NCBI RefSeq assembly: GCF_015207665.1 | Contig: NZ_JADEWL010000061.1 | Span: 1-39,129 of the forward strand | Length of the DNA: 39,129 bases | From: Plectonema cf. radiosum LEGE 06105 | GTDB taxonomy: Bacteria > Cyanobacteriota > Cyanobacteriia > Cyanobacteriales > Nostocaceae | Reading direction: 5' to 3' | Part shown: piece after piece, positions 6,848-32,701 of the stretch | Position numbering within the stretch: the first letter of the stretch is position 1 | How the letters are laid out: every line of letters begins with the position of its first letter | Notes under the pieces: model-generated | Seen by the model: the letters and a program-made list of their open reading frames with translations, nothing else | Told to the model about the DNA's origin: nothing | Database searches by the model: none | Program-made: the position numbers and the translations under genes

Positions 6848-8353
6848 GTGTATAAATATAAATGGATATTGCCGAGTTTAAAAGAAGTTTTAAGTCCAAG
6901 TCAAGCGACTAAAGCTGAATGTTCTTTACAGAAAGCACAACTGCAATGGCGTACTGCTTTAGCTGCTACTGAAGAGTTGCTGCTAAAATATTTGCCTGAA
7001 GTTGCATCGGATACAATTCAAGGATTGGTTTTAACTGCACCCGCTCCCGTGTTGTGCGAATCATTACTTAGGGGATGTTTACGGGCGGTAACTTTTACAG
7101 CAAAGCCATTTAATCCTCTGGCTTTGATGCCTTTTCATATGTCTTGCGATCGCAAAACAGCAAAAGAAAACACTTTTGATGAATTGGTGTTGCCTATACT
7201 GGAGGTAGATCCGCTATCAAAAGAACAGTTTTGTCTAGTTTTTACAGAAAAATTTTCATTAGTAATCGTTTTAACGGAAGAAAATAACAATAAAGGCAGC
7301 TTTTTATTTTCCTTTGATCCAGAAGTTGTTGAGCAAGCATGGCAAGCTCTTGCGGCTAGGGTAATGTTAAGTAATCCCGATTTATTCCTAGAATTGGATC
7401 GGTTGGTAGGAAAATATTATCCGAGTACACCTGACTATCGGATTGTGATGCAATTTAGTCAATTGTTGCTCGCAGAATATCCAGAATTAGAAGATAAAGG
7501 AACGAAGTTTCATTCTCAAGCAACGGGAGAGTCTAGAAATAAAGTTGAAGAAGTTAATTATCATAACTACCCCACTTCCACATCGACCAAACAATCATCT
7601 CGTTCGGATATAGAATTATTACAAGCTTTTGCTCATGAAGTACGTACTCCTTTAACAACGATTCGTACTACAACTCGTTTGCTGTTAAAACAAAAAGATT
7701 TGCCAGCTAAAGTTTTGAAGCGTTTACAATCCATCGATCGCGAATGTACAGAACAAATTGACCGCATGGAATTGCTGTTTAGAGCGGCGGAATTAGAAAC
7801 ATCTTCTACAGTAAATTCCCCAGGTTCCCCATTAACGGCAATGTGTTTAGAGCAAATGTTACAGCAAAGTATTCCTCGCTGGCAACAAGCTGCAAATCGG
7901 CGAAATTTAACTTTGGATGTTGTTTTACCGCAACAATTACCTACCGTGGTGACTAATCCCAATATGCTCGATCGAGTTTTGACTGGTTTAATGGAAAACT
8001 TGACTCGTAACTTACCTGCGGGTAGTCATATTCAGGTACAAGTAATTCAAGCAGGCGACCAATTGAAGGTACAATTACTACCTAACACGACTCTTGATAC
8101 ATCATCTGCGACACAACCCATTCGTAAAGCCATCGGTCAATTACTTACATTTCAGCCAGAAACGGGTACAATTAGCCTGAATTTAGCTGCAACTAAACAT
8201 TTATTCCAGGCTATTGGTGGTAAATTAATTGTACGGGAACGACCCCAACAAGGAGAAGTATTAACGATTTATTTGCCTTTGGAAGGAGTAAATAATTCTA
8301 GTTCTTGCTTGGGTAAACTTGGACAATATGGTTTTAAAGTTAATACTGGGTAA
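6848..8353 (+). CDS. Soluble histidine kinase with intact His box but degenerate ATPase domain
   Basis: 501 residues with no membrane segment, so cytoplasmic. Residues 126-172 (FCLVFTEKFSLVIVLTE ... FSFDPEVVEQAW) resemble the end of the DICT sensor region found in the convergent neighbour. The dimerisation/phosphoacceptor box is intact: FAHEVRTPLTTIRT, phospho-His263. The C-terminal domain keeps the ATPase outline (LPTVVTNPNMLDRVL, N383 at the N-box position), but the DxGxG motif is replaced by PNTTLDTS and the GxGLGL motif by GTISLNL, so ATP binding is doubtful. The start is GTG at 6848, with AGGGGTGAACTCCA upstream. The next gene lies tail-to-tail and has the opposite defect. Alternative: a pseudokinase scaffold. 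No response regulator is adjacent. Confidence 0.85.
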   Translation: MYKYKWILPSLKEVLSPSQATKAECSLQKAQLQWRTALAATEELLLKYLPEVASDTIQGLVLTAPAPVLCESLLRGCLRAVTFTAKPFNPLALMPFHMSCDRKTAKENTFDELVLPILEVDPLSKEQFCLVFTEKFSLVIVLTEENNNKGSFLFSFDPEVVEQAWQALAARVMLSNPDLFLELDRLVGKYYPSTPDYRIVMQFSQLLLAEYPELEDKGTKFHSQATGESRNKVEEVNYHNYPTSTSTKQSSRSDIELLQAFAHEVRTPLTTIRTTTRLLLKQKDLPAKVLKRLQSIDRECTEQIDRMELLFRAAELETSSTVNSPGSPLTAMCLEQMLQQSIPRWQQAANRRNLTLDVVLPQQLPTVVTNPNMLDRVLTGLMENLTRNLPAGSHIQVQVIQAGDQLKVQLLPNTTLDTSSATQPIRKAIGQLLTFQPETGTISLNLAATKHLFQAIGGKLIVRERPQQGEVLTIYLPLEGVNNSSSCLGKLGQYGFKVNTG

Positions 8354-8381
8354 ATCAGTTATCAGTTATCAGTTATCAGTT
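8354..8381. repeat. Heptamer array ATCAGTT x4
   Basis: Four perfect head-to-tail copies begin on the base after the TAA stop of the upstream kinase gene. STRR type. Confidence 0.95.
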
Positions 8382-8435
8382 CCGACGGTGTATGATTTGA
8401 GATCAGATAGGACGCATATCAATAGATTTTTGTCC

Positions 8436-8468
8436 ACTGTCAACTGTCAACTGTCAACTGTCAACTGT
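8436..8468. repeat. Heptamer array ACTGTCA x4.7
   Basis: Tandem copies of ACTGTCA at the 3' end of the minus-strand kinase gene. The array runs into the coding frame: the TGA stop of that gene (8461-8463) is made by the array. Confidence 0.95.
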
Positions 8469-9894
8469 TTATACTTGCTAAAAGTACTTTAAAACTAGAA
8501 CCTTCACCGGGAATTGAAGAGACGGAAATACTTCCACCGCATTTTTGGAGTAATTTTTCTACAATAGTTAAACCCAAGCCAGCGCTTCCGGTTTCTTCAT
8601 TAGCGACGGGACGCACTTTGTAAAAGCGGTTAAATATTTGGGAAATTTCATTTTCTGGAATACCTACACCAGTATCGCTAAATTCTAACTGGACGTAACC
8701 TTTTTGTGTGCGAGTTCTCACCCAAACTTGACCACCATTAGGTGTAAATTTAATGCAGTTAGAAAGAAGATTAATGACAATTTGTCTTAATCCACCACTG
8801 ACACACCAAACATTCGGTAAATCATTGGGTACTGTATACGCCAGCATGATACCTCTTTCTTGTGCTAAAGGTTGATATGTGCTGACCACACCTGGAACCA
8901 CCTCAGACAGGCATACAGGTTCTAAAGAAGCAGTTCCTAAATGACGCTCCAACTCGACTAAATCCATTGCACCAGTCATCAAATGATTTTGGCGATCGCA
9001 CTCTCGTTTGATCATATCCAAATAACGTTGTCGTTGGGGTGCTTTGATGCTGGGGGAATTCAGTAATGAAAGGGCTGTCTTGATATGAGTTAAAGGTGCA
9101 AGTAATTCTTGAAATACGTTCCTTAAGTATTCATCTTTAGCTTGCAATTCACTACGAAGTGTTTGATTTTGCTGTTTGGAGTTTCTGAAGCGACTTTTAA
9201 ATTTTCTAGAACTTATTTCCTCTTGTCGTTGAATTTGTGCAATCAATAATTGATTTGTTAATGCTGTTTGGGGTGTTTCAGGATAAATAAACTCGTTAGT
9301 TGCTAAATTAAACTCTTCTGAATGACTTATATTTTTTATTCCATCTACTACTCGTTGAATTATTTCACCATCAAAACAATGAACAGCTGGGAGGGACGGA
9401 ATTTTATGATGATTTTTTTGATTCAAAATCCGCTTTTTCAGTTTTTTTTGGCGACGATGAGCCAAAATCAAGCTGCAAAACTCTGGAGATAAAACAATTA
9501 AAAAGTACTCTCGTCTGATTTCGCGATTATCTGTAAAAATTTGGACTAAATTATGGGATAAGTCGATTCGAGAAGCAGCAGACGACCAATGATAAGATTG
9601 TGAATCGAAATTATTGGTATCTGTTTTAATTTCTTCAACCCCAGCTAATTGACAATTATAAATAGTAGCATCACTTAAATGCTGTTGATAACGTTTTAAT
9701 TCCGAATCCAAAATATTCATCAATGGAAATTTTACCACAATAGTCGCCGATATTTTTTGTTCAATCAGCAAATCAAATTGTGACCTGACCATTGATAGCA
9801 GAGTACCACAACTAAGAGTTAAATGCTTTGGAGGTGTTTGTACTTGCATCGCTAACTCATACAGAGATAAATTATCAGGTGGAGATAAATTCAT
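8461..9894 (-). CDS. DICT-domain histidine kinase lacking the phosphoacceptor His
   Basis: 477 residues from the chosen ATG, soluble. The N-terminal region (LSLYELAMQVQTPPKHL, then REYFLIVLSPEFCSLILAH and CFDGEIIQRVV near 128-183) is a DICT-type sensor. Residues 220-256 look coiled-coil. The dimerisation box reads NVFQELLAPLTHIKTAL, with Gln262 (codon CAA at 9109-9111) where the phospho-His belongs. The ATPase domain is complete: N-box NLLSNCIKFTP (N379), DTGVGIPENE (D407), FNRFYKV, GSAGLGLTIV. It should bind ATP but cannot autophosphorylate at the normal site. ATG at 9894 is preferred because DICT kinases begin close to the SLYEL motif; a longer frame from 9942 adds a hydrophobic MIYCCILLGFSFFYFL. 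A separate His270 lies eight residues downstream of Gln262. Confidence 0.85.
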   Translation of the reverse strand: MNLSPPDNLSLYELAMQVQTPPKHLTLSCGTLLSMVRSQFDLLIEQKISATIVVKFPLMNILDSELKRYQQHLSDATIYNCQLAGVEEIKTDTNNFDSQSYHWSSAASRIDLSHNLVQIFTDNREIRREYFLIVLSPEFCSLILAHRRQKKLKKRILNQKNHHKIPSLPAVHCFDGEIIQRVVDGIKNISHSEEFNLATNEFIYPETPQTALTNQLLIAQIQRQEEISSRKFKSRFRNSKQQNQTLRSELQAKDEYLRNVFQELLAPLTHIKTALSLLNSPSIKAPQRQRYLDMIKRECDRQNHLMTGAMDLVELERHLGTASLEPVCLSEVVPGVVSTYQPLAQERGIMLAYTVPNDLPNVWCVSGGLRQIVINLLSNCIKFTPNGGQVWVRTRTQKGYVQLEFSDTGVGIPENEISQIFNRFYKVRPVANEETGSAGLGLTIVEKLLQKCGGSISVSSIPGEGSSFKVLLASINS

Positions 9895-10003
9895 AAGAAA
9901 ATAAAAGAAGGAAAACCCAAGAAGTATACAGCAATAAATCATACTTTCTTAGATTCTCCCTCCTAAGTGTAATTTTTTTACAAAAACATAAGAATTTGGG
10001 AAT

Positions 10004-10094
10004 AGGGTTAGGGGTTAGGAGTTAGGAGTTAGGGGTTAGGGGTTAGGGGTTAGGAGTTAACTATATTACCTTTAACCTTTAACCTTTAACCTTT
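10004..10094. repeat. Back-to-back heptamer arrays GGGGTTA/GGAGTTA x8 and TTTAACC x3.4
   Basis: 10004-10059 holds eight copies of GGRGTTA. After an 11-bp gap, TTTAACC repeats occupy 10071-10094. The second array is also the 3' end of murE: its TAA stop and last residues are array-encoded. Confidence 0.95.
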
Positions 10095-21567: not shown

Positions 21568-22257
21568 ATGAACCAGAATATATCGGAAAAATTGCCGCTG
21601 AAAATTTTGTTGATTGACAATCATGAATTGTGTTTGCATGGAACGTTTAATGTACTAACCTCTACATATGCAGATGCAGAAATTATTACAGCTAAAACAG
21701 CGGAAAATGCTTTCAAACAAATCTCGACATTCAATCCTGATTTAGTAATTATGGATATTAATATATCTGAACAGTGTGACAAAAAAGCAACTGTTGAGAC
21801 GGGAATGCAGATGCTCAAGAATATAATGCAAAACTATCCTCAAGTAAATATTGTCATACAAAGCGCTTACATTAAAGCTTTAGTCAGGATGAGATATGAG
21901 ATTAGTTCTCACTCTGGAGGTTTTACAGTAGTTGATAAAAGTCTCTGTGTAGAAGAGATGTTAAATAGAATCAAATGGGCTTTACAGGGAATAACTCATA
22001 TTAAAGACATTCCTCAGATGAATTTTGGATTGGAAGAAAAACCAGAGTGGTTAAAACTGCTGACTTTAGCTTATCAGGAAGGGTTACAGGATAAAGCAAT
22101 CGCTCAACATATTAGTGTATCCGAGCGGATGGTACGTCACTATTGGTTTAATCTCCAAGAAGCTTTAGGTATTGATAGTGAAGAATTGAAAAATCAAGGA
22201 AAAAATCTCCGCATGATTACTAGAATTCGTGCCAGGGAAGTCGGTTTAATTGATTGA
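21568..22257 (+). CDS. Orphan REC-HTH response regulator
   Basis: 229 residues. Receiver domain 11-142: D17 in the acidic pocket (LLIDNHE), phospho-Asp63 in LVIMDINIS, Ser99 and Lys124 (VVDKS) complete the usual set, so phosphorylation is likely. Residues 160-205 (AYQEGLQDKAIAQHISVSERMVRHYW) form a NarL/LuxR-type helix-turn-helix, with a further C-terminal extension. The loop after D63 is longer than usual (ISEQCDKKATVETG). No kinase is adjacent; the region upstream (21332-21567) shows no gene. Confidence 0.88.
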   Translation: MNQNISEKLPLKILLIDNHELCLHGTFNVLTSTYADAEIITAKTAENAFKQISTFNPDLVIMDINISEQCDKKATVETGMQMLKNIMQNYPQVNIVIQSAYIKALVRMRYEISSHSGGFTVVDKSLCVEEMLNRIKWALQGITHIKDIPQMNFGLEEKPEWLKLLTLAYQEGLQDKAIAQHISVSERMVRHYWFNLQEALGIDSEELKNQGKNLRMITRIRAREVGLID

Positions 22258-29538: not shown

Positions 29539-30342
29539 GGTAACGCAGTATTATCAACGGCAAACATACAGCATTATATTATAAAGCAATGCGTGGGATG
29601 GGCATCCCTGCCCGTCCGAATATGCCTCATAAAGATGAAATATGCTGTATCTGTTTATCTTGAACTCGGTTTCTTTATGAAGCCGGGTTTTTCTTTTCAG
29701 TAGAGATTAAATTAGGACTTAGCAACGCCAGCATATTTTTGACTGTAGGAAACTTCCTGTGTAATTGCCGTTGTGTGACGCTACGAGAGAATTTGAACCT
29801 AGCAATAAGACTTCTAGCGCCTATTTTTAGTAATTAAAATAAAATCCCATATCTACTGAATATAAATTATACAATGCAATTTATCGAAAAATCATTTATA
29901 TATTTTGGTATTAATCTGATTGTTACTTCTGAAAAAGGAATTAACTAGTTTTTTTACAATTATTTTCAGTGTTTTCACTTAATTTTTATCTATTCTAAGC
30001 CGTCTTTGCGTAAACTTTATAGTTAGACGGTCATTTTTAGTGCAAAATGATACCTGAGTCGCGGCAACGACTCAGGCGATTGATCTGTCCCATTAATTTT
30101 AAAGAATTGTATCCGAGTTCTATTTATAGGACTTATGTTATTAGACAGGGAATTATATTCCCCGACGGACTAATGGGACAAAACTCTATGAAGTTAATCT
30201 GCTGCTAGATTCATTGAATAAATAAGTAATATCTGACACTATATCTTTTCAGGGTATTATCTCATGTTACCAAGTGTCAGAGCGAGTTGATGTGACTATT
30301 GAAGTAATTTACGTCAGTATTTACCTAAAAGGAAAGAATTCA
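29539..30342. other. Long structured spacer between the PEP-CTERM genes
   Basis: About 800 bp. It holds an intrinsic terminator (29663-29697), two TAGGACTTA ends (29713 and 30127), a CCGTCT...AGACGG stem (30000-30030), a strong 9-bp stem CCTGAGTCG/CGACTCAGG (30053-30076) and a longer-range pair TGTCCCATTA (30086-30095)/TAATGGGACA (30171-30180). The last three could form a structured leader or a small RNA ahead of the next gene. Confidence 0.5.
29663..29697 (+). terminator. Intrinsic terminator after the first PEP-CTERM gene
   Basis: AACTCGGTTTC (29663-29673) pairs with GAAGCCGGGTT (29679-29689), two positions as G-U, loop of 5, then TTTTTCTTTT. Best-formed terminator in the window. Confidence 0.75.
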
Positions 30343-31614
30343 ATGTCCATTTCAATTATCTTGAAAAAGTTGTCGATCCTTGTCATTGGTACGGCATTTA
30401 TAGCTATCGGAACAGCCAATAATGCTCAAGCTACTAGCATTATTCTTGATGGATTTGGTGGAGATGCCGGTTTTGGTGATTTAGCCCTGCCTAGGAACGA
30501 TGATGGTTCGACAAACCAGTTAAATTTACCCTTCGGGATTAATTTTTTTGGGAATGATTTCGATCGCTTTTTCATCAACAATAATGGGAATTTGACCTTC
30601 TCCGGACCATTATCTGGCTTTACACCTCAAGCTTTCCCTATTTCCAATCTGCCAATGATTGCGCCTTTTTGGGCAGATGTTGATACTCGCTGTGCATTTT
30701 GTGGTGAGGTTTATGTTGCTTCTCCCAACTCAGATACCGTTGTTGTCACTTGGAATAATGTCGGTTATTACAATCAAAACAGTGACAAGACAAATACTTT
30801 CCAAACAGTACTCCGCAACCGACAAGACACAGGTAATGGAAACTTCGATATTGAATACCGTTACGATCAATTAGAGTGGACAACTGGAGATGCTAGTGGT
30901 GGTAGCAACGGATTTGGAGGAACACCAGCACAAGCAGGTTTTGATGCAGGCGACTTGACTAACTTCTTTACTCTTCCAGGTTCTCGTACAAATGAAGTAT
31001 TAAATTTACAAAATACTAGCAACCTTCCCGAACCTGTTCCTGGAGTTTGGTCTTTCGCGGTTCGCAACGGTCAATTACCAGGTTCGAGTCCAGAAAATCC
31101 CTTACTACCAGTAATTACTGAAGAAGGTTTTAACTTTGATTTCAATATTATAAACCCGACTGTACCAATCTTCATTGACCCTGTAATTGCTGTTGGTTAC
31201 AGCTACATTGTTGATAACGGTCCGAACATTGCTTCTGTGCTTCTGCCGACTGGTATTGGAGATGACTTGTATGACCTGTTTTTATTTGATGCTGCACTCA
31301 ATGATTATATAGATTCCGGTTTCGATATTACAGGTGGAAATACTTACGATTTCGCTAGTAGCGGTGTAGATAGATTCAGAATTTTAGGTATTGAAACCAG
31401 CGCAGGACTAGATCCTAATAATCCCACTGCTTTTGTCACAGGATTGACATTTGTTAATTCTGGTAATGTACAAATGCGTCAAATCCCGATTGTTCAAAAT
31501 TCTGAAGAAATCCCCGAACCGATGACTATCTTAGGAACCCTGACAGCAGGTGCATTCGGAACTCAATTCATGCGGAAGCGTAAGCAAATGCAGGCTGCGA
31601 AATCTGAAGCTTAA
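30343..31614 (+). CDS. Nidogen-like PEP-CTERM surface protein
   Basis: 423 residues from ATG 30343, picked for AAAAGGAAAG about 9 nt upstream and because it places the signal peptide (about 1-30, ending NNAQA) at the front; a longer frame from 30274 would bury it. Residues about 48-235 (FFGNDFDRFFINNNGNLTF, PMIAPFWADVDTR, VVVTWNNVGYY, VLRNRQDTGNGNFDIEY) match the NIDO (nidogen) extracellular domain. A second beta-rich region follows. The end carries IPEPMTILGTLTAGAF plus RKRK, a PEP-CTERM signal. Probably an outer surface or matrix adhesion protein sorted by the adjacent exosortase. Confidence 0.9.
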   Translation: MSISIILKKLSILVIGTAFIAIGTANNAQATSIILDGFGGDAGFGDLALPRNDDGSTNQLNLPFGINFFGNDFDRFFINNNGNLTFSGPLSGFTPQAFPISNLPMIAPFWADVDTRCAFCGEVYVASPNSDTVVVTWNNVGYYNQNSDKTNTFQTVLRNRQDTGNGNFDIEYRYDQLEWTTGDASGGSNGFGGTPAQAGFDAGDLTNFFTLPGSRTNEVLNLQNTSNLPEPVPGVWSFAVRNGQLPGSSPENPLLPVITEEGFNFDFNIINPTVPIFIDPVIAVGYSYIVDNGPNIASVLLPTGIGDDLYDLFLFDAALNDYIDSGFDITGGNTYDFASSGVDRFRILGIETSAGLDPNNPTAFVTGLTFVNSGNVQMRQIPIVQNSEEIPEPMTILGTLTAGAFGTQFMRKRKQMQAAKSEA

Positions 31615-31849: not shown

Positions 31850-32701
31850 ATGAATATAACTGATATAGCCTCTCCCAAAATACTTAAAGATACTCGTTAT
31901 TGGCTGCTAGGAATTGCTGCGGGTTTAGAAGCAATTTGTTTAACTCTCATCTGGAAGGCTGATGATACTGGACATTTAGGAATGAGTCTACTGTTTTTAT
32001 TTGCTGTGGGAACATTAACTTGGGAAAAACGCCATACTTTGAAGTTTGAAAGTGAAGTTGTATCTAGTATTGTAGGTATAGGCTTGATTAGTTGGGTTTT
32101 GTGGGAAAGTGCGAACCTAGCTGATGGTAATATAATGCGTCTTTTATCTTTTACTTCAGCTTTGGGGGTTGCTTTACTCGCTTCTGGTTTTAAGGGATTA
32201 AAGCAATATTGGCAGGAACTTACTATCTTATTTTTCTTAAGTGTACCCAGCGTAATTGCTAGCTTATTATTAGATATTGCTCCTTTAACCGCTAAGTTTT
32301 CAGCTTTCCTTTTGCACTATTGCGGCTTTGATGTAACTACTCAAGGAGTTTTCATTAATTTACCCGATGGTGGGGTAGAGGTAACAACTGAATGCTCTGG
32401 TTTAGACACTATCATTTATATTTTCAGTGTTTCCGTACTTGCTTTAGTAATGTTTCCCATACATCGCAGCAAAAGATTTTTCGTCCCGATTGTGGCAATA
32501 ATAATTGGATTTGTAATCAACGCAATTAGGGTAGTAATGCTGACAATATTCGCTGCATCAAATAAAGCCGCTTTTCATAACTGGCATGGAGGACAAGCTT
32601 CGTATTTATACGGAATGATAGGTATTTTAATTTTTGGATGTTTCTATTGGTTACTCTTACACCAGGAAGAAAAAAGTCAAATTACTCGGAGTTCTGATTG
32701 A
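31850..32701 (+). CDS. Cyanoexosortase (exosortase A-like transpeptidase)
   Basis: 283 residues with about eight membrane helices. The catalytic trio of exosortases is visible: C182 in TTECSGLDTIIY, R227 in NAIRVVML and H246 in FHNWHGG. It cleaves PEP-CTERM signals at the periplasmic face and passes the protein on to an anchor. A terminal region rich in charge (HQEEKSQITRSSD) is cytoplasmic. Its stop overlaps the next start (TGATG), so the two are translationally coupled. Two PEP-CTERM substrates lie just upstream. Subtype (A, B or C) is not certain; A-like is a guess from length and partners. Confidence 0.92.
   Translation: MNITDIASPKILKDTRYWLLGIAAGLEAICLTLIWKADDTGHLGMSLLFLFAVGTLTWEKRHTLKFESEVVSSIVGIGLISWVLWESANLADGNIMRLLSFTSALGVALLASGFKGLKQYWQELTILFFLSVPSVIASLLLDIAPLTAKFSAFLLHYCGFDVTTQGVFINLPDGGVEVTTECSGLDTIIYIFSVSVLALVMFPIHRSKRFFVPIVAIIIGFVINAIRVVMLTIFAASNKAAFHNWHGGQASYLYGMIGILIFGCFYWLLLHQEEKSQITRSSD

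Follow-up and report, generated by a model that had tools for sequence, protein, structure and literature searches.

The window analysed here, a 39,129-nt stretch of cyanobacterial DNA taken from contig NZ_JADEWL010000061.1 of Plectonema cf. radiosum LEGE 06105, carries two convergent genes, both with intact frames, for proteins related to sensor histidine kinases and referred to here as KinA and KinB. From translations read by eye, the genes upstream of the pair are presumably psaA, psaB and psaL, and the gene after it presumably murE. The features of the pair are the following:

6848–8353, plus strand: KinA, 501 aa from a GTG start, assigned by open reading frame and Pfam; an N-terminal segment that is at most partially DICT-like, a complete HisKA/DHp domain (His263, Glu264, Thr267) and a degenerate HATPase domain without G1 and G2
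7175–7495, plus strand: KinA residues 110–216, matched in a profile alignment to the second half of the KinB DICT domain plus the stretch that follows
7634–7636, plus strand: CAT codon of the KinA phospho-acceptor His263
8354–8460, no strand: intergenic region between the convergent genes, 107 bp, with two arrays of 7-bp tandem repeats
8461–9942, minus strand: KinB, 493 aa from the ATG at 9942, with a probable start at 9894; a DICT sensor, a long helix, a HisKA/DHp domain with Gln for His and an intact HATPase_c domain
9109–9111, minus strand: CAA codon of the Gln that stands for the acceptor His in KinB, residue 278 counted from 9942 and 262 counted from 9894

The start of KinB is likely the ATG at 9894, because the Met encoded there is kept in at least 90% of 32 aligned rows. 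Arrays of 7-bp tandem repeats flank KinB on both sides, at 8354–8381 and 8431–8468 and at 10005–10059 and 10068–10094, and the second of them runs into the end of KinB. Farther along, about 12 kb from the kinase pair, lies an orphan regulator, a 229-aa protein (21568–22257) whose sole Pfam domain is a receiver domain. The window also encodes a nidogen-like (NIDO) protein (30274–31614) followed by an exosortase (31850–32701), perhaps an exosortase with its substrate.

KinA keeps its phospho-acceptor box and has lost its ATP site. The H box reads AHEVRTPLT (residues 262–270), the Pfam HisKA match scores 33.1 bits, above the cut-off of 26.9, and the HATPase_c match scores 18.1 bits, below the cut-off of 26.4; neither DxGxG nor GxGLGL is found in the KinA sequence of the window. 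Orthologues, one per genome, were aligned in 107 rows, two of them fragments without the H box; the 105 rows with a letter there all carry His263, Glu264 and Thr267. G1 and G2 motifs are missing from their places in all 107 rows. Asn itself stands at the N-box position in 75 of 107, and the G2 region forms a conserved, non-catalytic stretch reading ETGxxSLNL, which indicates that the HATPase domain of KinA is more than the product of mere erosion. The preliminary description of this DNA had reported an intact His263 box alongside the loss of DxGxG and GxGLGL, and both points are borne out in the window and throughout the alignment. A few strings that resemble an ATP motif were rejected as such: the DxGxG in the KinA of genome G005 (1/107 rows) lies in a variable insert that reads otherwise in close relatives, and the DxGxG strings in 3 of the 80 KinA rows from a second set of named loci, partly from the same genomes, are all upstream of the His box. 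One KinA of this second set reads HKVRTPL.

KinB displays the complementary defect. It matches the Pfam domains DICT (99.8 bits) and HATPase_c (91.9 bits), and its HisKA score of 27.2 bits lies barely above the cut-off of 26.9. In the window, the box reads FQELLAPLT. Across an alignment covering 177 of the 181 KinB genomes (G125, G160, G179 and G273 were left out), the His position holds Gln in 161 rows, His in 8, Leu in 3, Arg in 3 and Glu in 2; with 169 of 177 orthologues non-His, a strain-specific mutation is ruled out. The residue that follows is Glu in 172 of 177 rows. At the ATP site, Asn395, Asp423 and Gly425 are each present in all 177 rows, as is Phe440. Complete ATP motifs combined with Gln262 (CAA) for His had been described before and are confirmed here; the refuting case named in the preliminary description, orthologues that keep the His, does not apply, since only 8 of 177 do. 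Where a HisKA kinase normally has its phosphatase Thr or Asn, four positions past the His, the alignment has Thr in 139 rows, Ala in 15, Ile in 8, Ser in 6, Asn in 5 and others in 4, so that the phosphatase-type residue is kept in 144 and lost in 33; the window has Ala282. The eight His-bearing rows span five genera (three in g9, two in g5, and one each in g7, g23 and g90), and a FastTree tree suggests about four changes between His and non-His in the history of KinB. The H box seemed wholly lost in one genus, with apparent N or S boxes; this was an artefact of the search pattern, and the true boxes read QELRTPLT. Four genomes (G112, G254, G261 and G306) have short KinB orthologues of 254–280 aa (L371, L372, L373 and L374, respectively) with HisKA, HATPase_c and Gln in the His position, in which no Pfam DICT match was found. 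Set beside a complete HisKA-type sensor kinase, KinA has the acceptor His and, of the N/G1/G2 ATP motifs, lacks G1 and G2, and KinB has the ATP motifs and lacks the acceptor His (169/177, window included).

A DICT-like segment had been described as common to both proteins, and this holds in part. Profile–profile comparison of KinA with the KinB DICT region gives an alignment of 98 columns (probability 94.5, E 7.5e-8); the Pfam DICT domain that marks a DICT sensor kinase is found only in KinB, so KinA carries at most part of the domain. Single-chain AlphaFold2 models have a mean pLDDT of 77.1 for KinA, with most of residues 425–442 below 50, and of 77.4 for KinB. The PDB matches of both models are histidine kinase cores; for KinA, the third and fourth Foldseek matches are DivL (4q20_B) and RetS (7n0e_B), respectively. 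In a tree of 53 kinase cores, KinA and KinB (12 rows each) each form a single clade; the tree leaves unsettled whether they are sister paralogues.

The distribution of the two genes was determined in 99 genomes from the family to which the window belongs and 242 from its class, together 330 different genomes. KinA, sought with a single sequence at E 1e-30 or better, is present in 98 of the 99 family genomes and 230 of the 242 class genomes, or 317 of 330 overall. KinB was sought in the family by single sequence alone, at E 1e-45 or better, and in the class with profile A2, where 137 genomes had a match at E 1e-50 and 27 showing only weaker matches were subtracted. It is present in 76 family and 110 class genomes, 181 different genomes in all; in the class profile search the accepted KinB proteins score at least 255.7 bits, against at most 205.5 for the other matches listed. 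Combining the tables of the two samples by hand gives 180 of the 330 genomes with both genes, 137 with KinA only, one with KinB only (G024) and 12 with neither; the total of 181 KinB genomes was confirmed by a recount. KinB is therefore accompanied by KinA in 180 of 181 cases (Fisher p 0.0008, kinship ignored). KinA is a near-universal core protein, and KinB is its frequent but dispensable companion. Ten of 12 genomes without KinA were searched again with a KinA profile, which found a KinA-like protein in G172 (1.9e-41) and weak matches in G114, G133, G161 and G200 (4.8e-15 or worse); the remaining five had no match at 1e-12. The G172 protein (L360, 901–2187, plus strand) is a divergent KinA-like protein with AHEV at the box and with G1 and G2 absent by pattern. 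The other five members of its family (f27) that were searched with the KinA profile gave a weak match or none.

The genes lie less than 5 kb apart on one contig in 41 of the 76 family genomes and 17 of the 110 class genomes with KinB. This amounts to 55 of the 181 different KinB genomes, with 52 convergent and three tandem arrangements (G212, G277 and G297). The arrangement was read from loci carrying both genes in 49 of these, all convergent, and from table coordinates in six, namely the three tandem cases and the convergent G001, G006 and G263. The figure of 55 is a lower bound, since many drafts have the genes on different contigs and KinA is unplaced in G101, G112, G126 and G143. Close pairs of the class sample fall in nine families; in eight further class genomes the distance is 5–30 kb, and in several finished genomes the genes are far apart. 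Chance values calculated for the linkage take no account of kinship, and two of them assumed ten families instead of the correct nine; they are given no weight here. In the second set of 80 loci, KinB adjoins KinA in 31, always convergently, and the KinB boxes of these have Gln in 27, His in one and Glu in one, with two unread by pattern. The preliminary description had considered that the genes might occur independently in most genomes. The counts point both ways: KinB goes with KinA in 180 of 181 genomes, but KinA lacks KinB in 137 of 317, and proximity within 5 kb is seen in only 55 of 181.

Genomes without KinB show what becomes of KinA alone. All 21 aligned rows from such genomes keep the H-box His, Glu, Thr and Pro intact, which argues that His263 has a use independent of KinB, and for KinA the earlier claim that neither protein could signal by itself goes too far. 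In three KinB-less genomes of 1.7–2.3 Mb (G099, G196 and G153), KinA reads HEVRTPL and has no ATP motifs by pattern; the HisKA cut-off is exceeded by four proteins in G196 and five in G099, KinA among them in each. The other HisKA proteins of these three genomes and of G129 have His in every readable box. Two weak HisKA matches of G153, below the Pfam cut-off, show no box or motif, and searching G099, G196 and G124 separately for HATPase_c brought up two further kinases, each of which has a His box. Among the readable boxes of the four small KinB-less genomes examined, a substitute His-less partner kinase was not found. Proteins that had appeared box-less were rejected as candidates: HEIGQPL is intact in the long kinases from G124 and G196, and the G129 proteins without a visible box in fact read HELRTPL, HDLQEPL and HELRSPL. 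The former (L398 and L399) are membrane kinases in which HEIGQPL is unusual, and the one in G196 was missed by the Pfam HisKA search. Two further HisKA proteins, both of G129 (L278 and a 432-aa frame of L273), have a His box, but a pattern search shows neither G1 nor G2 in them, and other His-only HisKA proteins besides KinA may thus exist. This persistence of KinA where KinB is missing, as it is in 137 genomes, speaks most strongly against a strictly two-part device.

Purifying selection acts on both degenerate halves. When the window is compared with two congeners, the DHp and CA domains have omega values of 0.04–0.11 in KinA and 0.04–0.13 in KinB, and the N-terminal parts are looser (0.21–0.41). 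These low values imply that the CA domain of KinA without ATP motifs and the DHp domain of KinB without His are both kept, and they rule out a pseudogene reading of either gene. Covariation was computed from 84 KinA/KinB genome pairs after KinA rows with at least 65% gaps had been dropped. The top 50 pairs include 10 of the DHp–DHp type against 0.8 expected and 10 between the KinA CA and KinB DHp domains against 1.8 expected, with the leading pairs tracking a single deep division among the genomes sampled. After matching for entropy, z 2.5 is exceeded by 3.5% of DHp–DHp pairs, against 1.5% overall. We do not take these figures as evidence for the pairing.

A kinase is split when its acceptor His and its ATP site lie on separate proteins, and this is how they are distributed between KinA and KinB. 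The complementary, conserved motif losses, the nesting of KinB in KinA genomes and the proximity of the genes in nine families suggest trans-phosphorylation as the simplest function. A split pair appears to be the best reading where both proteins are present, and we judge the chances evenly balanced that the two form a natural split HisKA kinase in which KinB phosphorylates KinA in trans. KinA and KinB would pair through their homologous DHp helices into a heterodimer, in which the ATP-binding domain of KinB would phosphorylate His263 of KinA. KinA, with a complete His-Glu-x-x-Thr, would pass the phosphate to a response regulator and may also dephosphorylate that regulator. The two-input AND gate suggested in the preliminary description would be a conjecture built on this scheme. 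In the 137 KinB-less genomes, KinA would either be charged by another, complete kinase or act without phosphate. The mechanism would fail if the kinase worked in cis instead of in trans. A wider proposal, which we put forward tentatively as a possibility, is that KinA is a near-universal cyanobacterial kinase without an ATP site of its own that is always charged in trans, by KinB where present and by a core kinase elsewhere. If true, KinA would be a conserved node joining signals from another sensor, retained even in genomes where no more than four or five proteins pass the HisKA cut-off.

Other readings of the same evidence have to be weighed. KinA might serve generally as a phospho-acceptor, or as a regulatory pseudokinase, in partnership with complete kinases, presumably of the NblS, SasA or Hik2 type, much as RetS partners GacS, with KinB a separate regulator and the gene neighbourhood historical. 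Such a role would fit the occurrence of KinA in 317 of 330 genomes, the box kept in 21 of 21 KinB-less rows, the membership of KinA among the four and five HisKA proteins of G196 and G099, and the placing of DivL and RetS third and fourth among the matches of its model. It leaves unexplained, however, why KinB is nested in KinA genomes (180/181) and why its His is lost (169/177) with the ATP site unchanged, and we consider it unlikely, though deserving of some weight. KinB could also be a dedicated phosphatase or inhibitor of a response regulator or of KinA, the loss of His removing the kinase function and leaving that of a phosphatase. The phosphatase action of HisKA kinases can outlast loss of the His, and 144 of 177 KinB proteins keep the Thr or Asn four residues past it. 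Because this residue is lost in the other 33, including Ala282 of the window, while Asn395, Asp423 and Gly425 are never lost, a dedicated phosphatase is quite improbable.

Very improbable, in our estimate, is that KinB phosphorylates a His protein other than KinA, be it a further kinase or an HPt protein: proximity within 5 kb in only 17 of 110 KinB genomes of the class sample leaves room for such an acceptor, but KinB occurs without KinA in just one genome of 181, and the two are neighbours in nine families. Lastly, the motif losses would resemble the decay of two paralogues without joint function if a single genome were read alone. The low omega of the degenerate domains, their class-wide conservation and the intact frames of the window already disfavour decay, which we regard as scarcely tenable.

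Should the split pair be real, a HisKA pair arising by complementary inactivation and conserved throughout the cyanobacteria would demonstrate that two-input heterodimers can evolve from ordinary sensor kinases. KinA would be a core signalling protein of very small cyanobacterial genomes that is unable to phosphorylate itself, so the question of who charges KinA provides a direct test.

Among the titles listed in a literature search there was no paper on a HisKA pair like KinA/KinB, although work under model-strain locus names could be missed by such a search, and the pair is not described in the available portions of PMC9953108, PMC3264485 and PMC10294614. The natural split kinases that it did find are of the CheA type. 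In CheA3/CheA4 of Rhodobacter sphaeroides, the ATP site and the acceptor His lie on two proteins, neither of which autophosphorylates alone, according to the accessible part of PMC3591291, and KinA/KinB likewise carry the acceptor His and the ATP site on separate proteins. The same paper gives 3.66% as the share of HisKA proteins in SMART without a HATPase domain (PMC3591291). CheA3/CheA4 are CheA-type proteins from which whole domains are missing, P1 in CheA4 and P3 and P4 in CheA3. KinA and KinB are, in contrast, HisKA proteins of full length whose motifs have been inactivated and whose degenerate domains are conserved, and Pfam, at E values up to 1, finds no CheA domain, HPt (P1) included, in either. 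A cyanobacterial split histidine kinase, Hik36/Hik43 of Synechocystis, is a split PilL/CheA as far as the accessible sections of PMC7656254 describe it; there a cheA homologue of the tax3/pilG system is divided into two genes, whereas KinA and KinB are HisKA/DICT proteins.

The proteobacterial pairs RetS–GacS and DivL–CckA resemble KinA/KinB in having non-canonical kinase partners. RetS and DivL each regulate a complete kinase, GacS and CckA, respectively, and abstracts term DivL a pseudo-histidine kinase. Unlike in these pairs, the defects of KinA and KinB are complementary. Engineered mutants of EnvZ, NtrB and CheA come close in this respect, since a His-less subunit phosphorylates a subunit without an ATP site in a mixed dimer; those complementing mutants were made in the laboratory, whereas the KinA/KinB pattern is natural and conserved.
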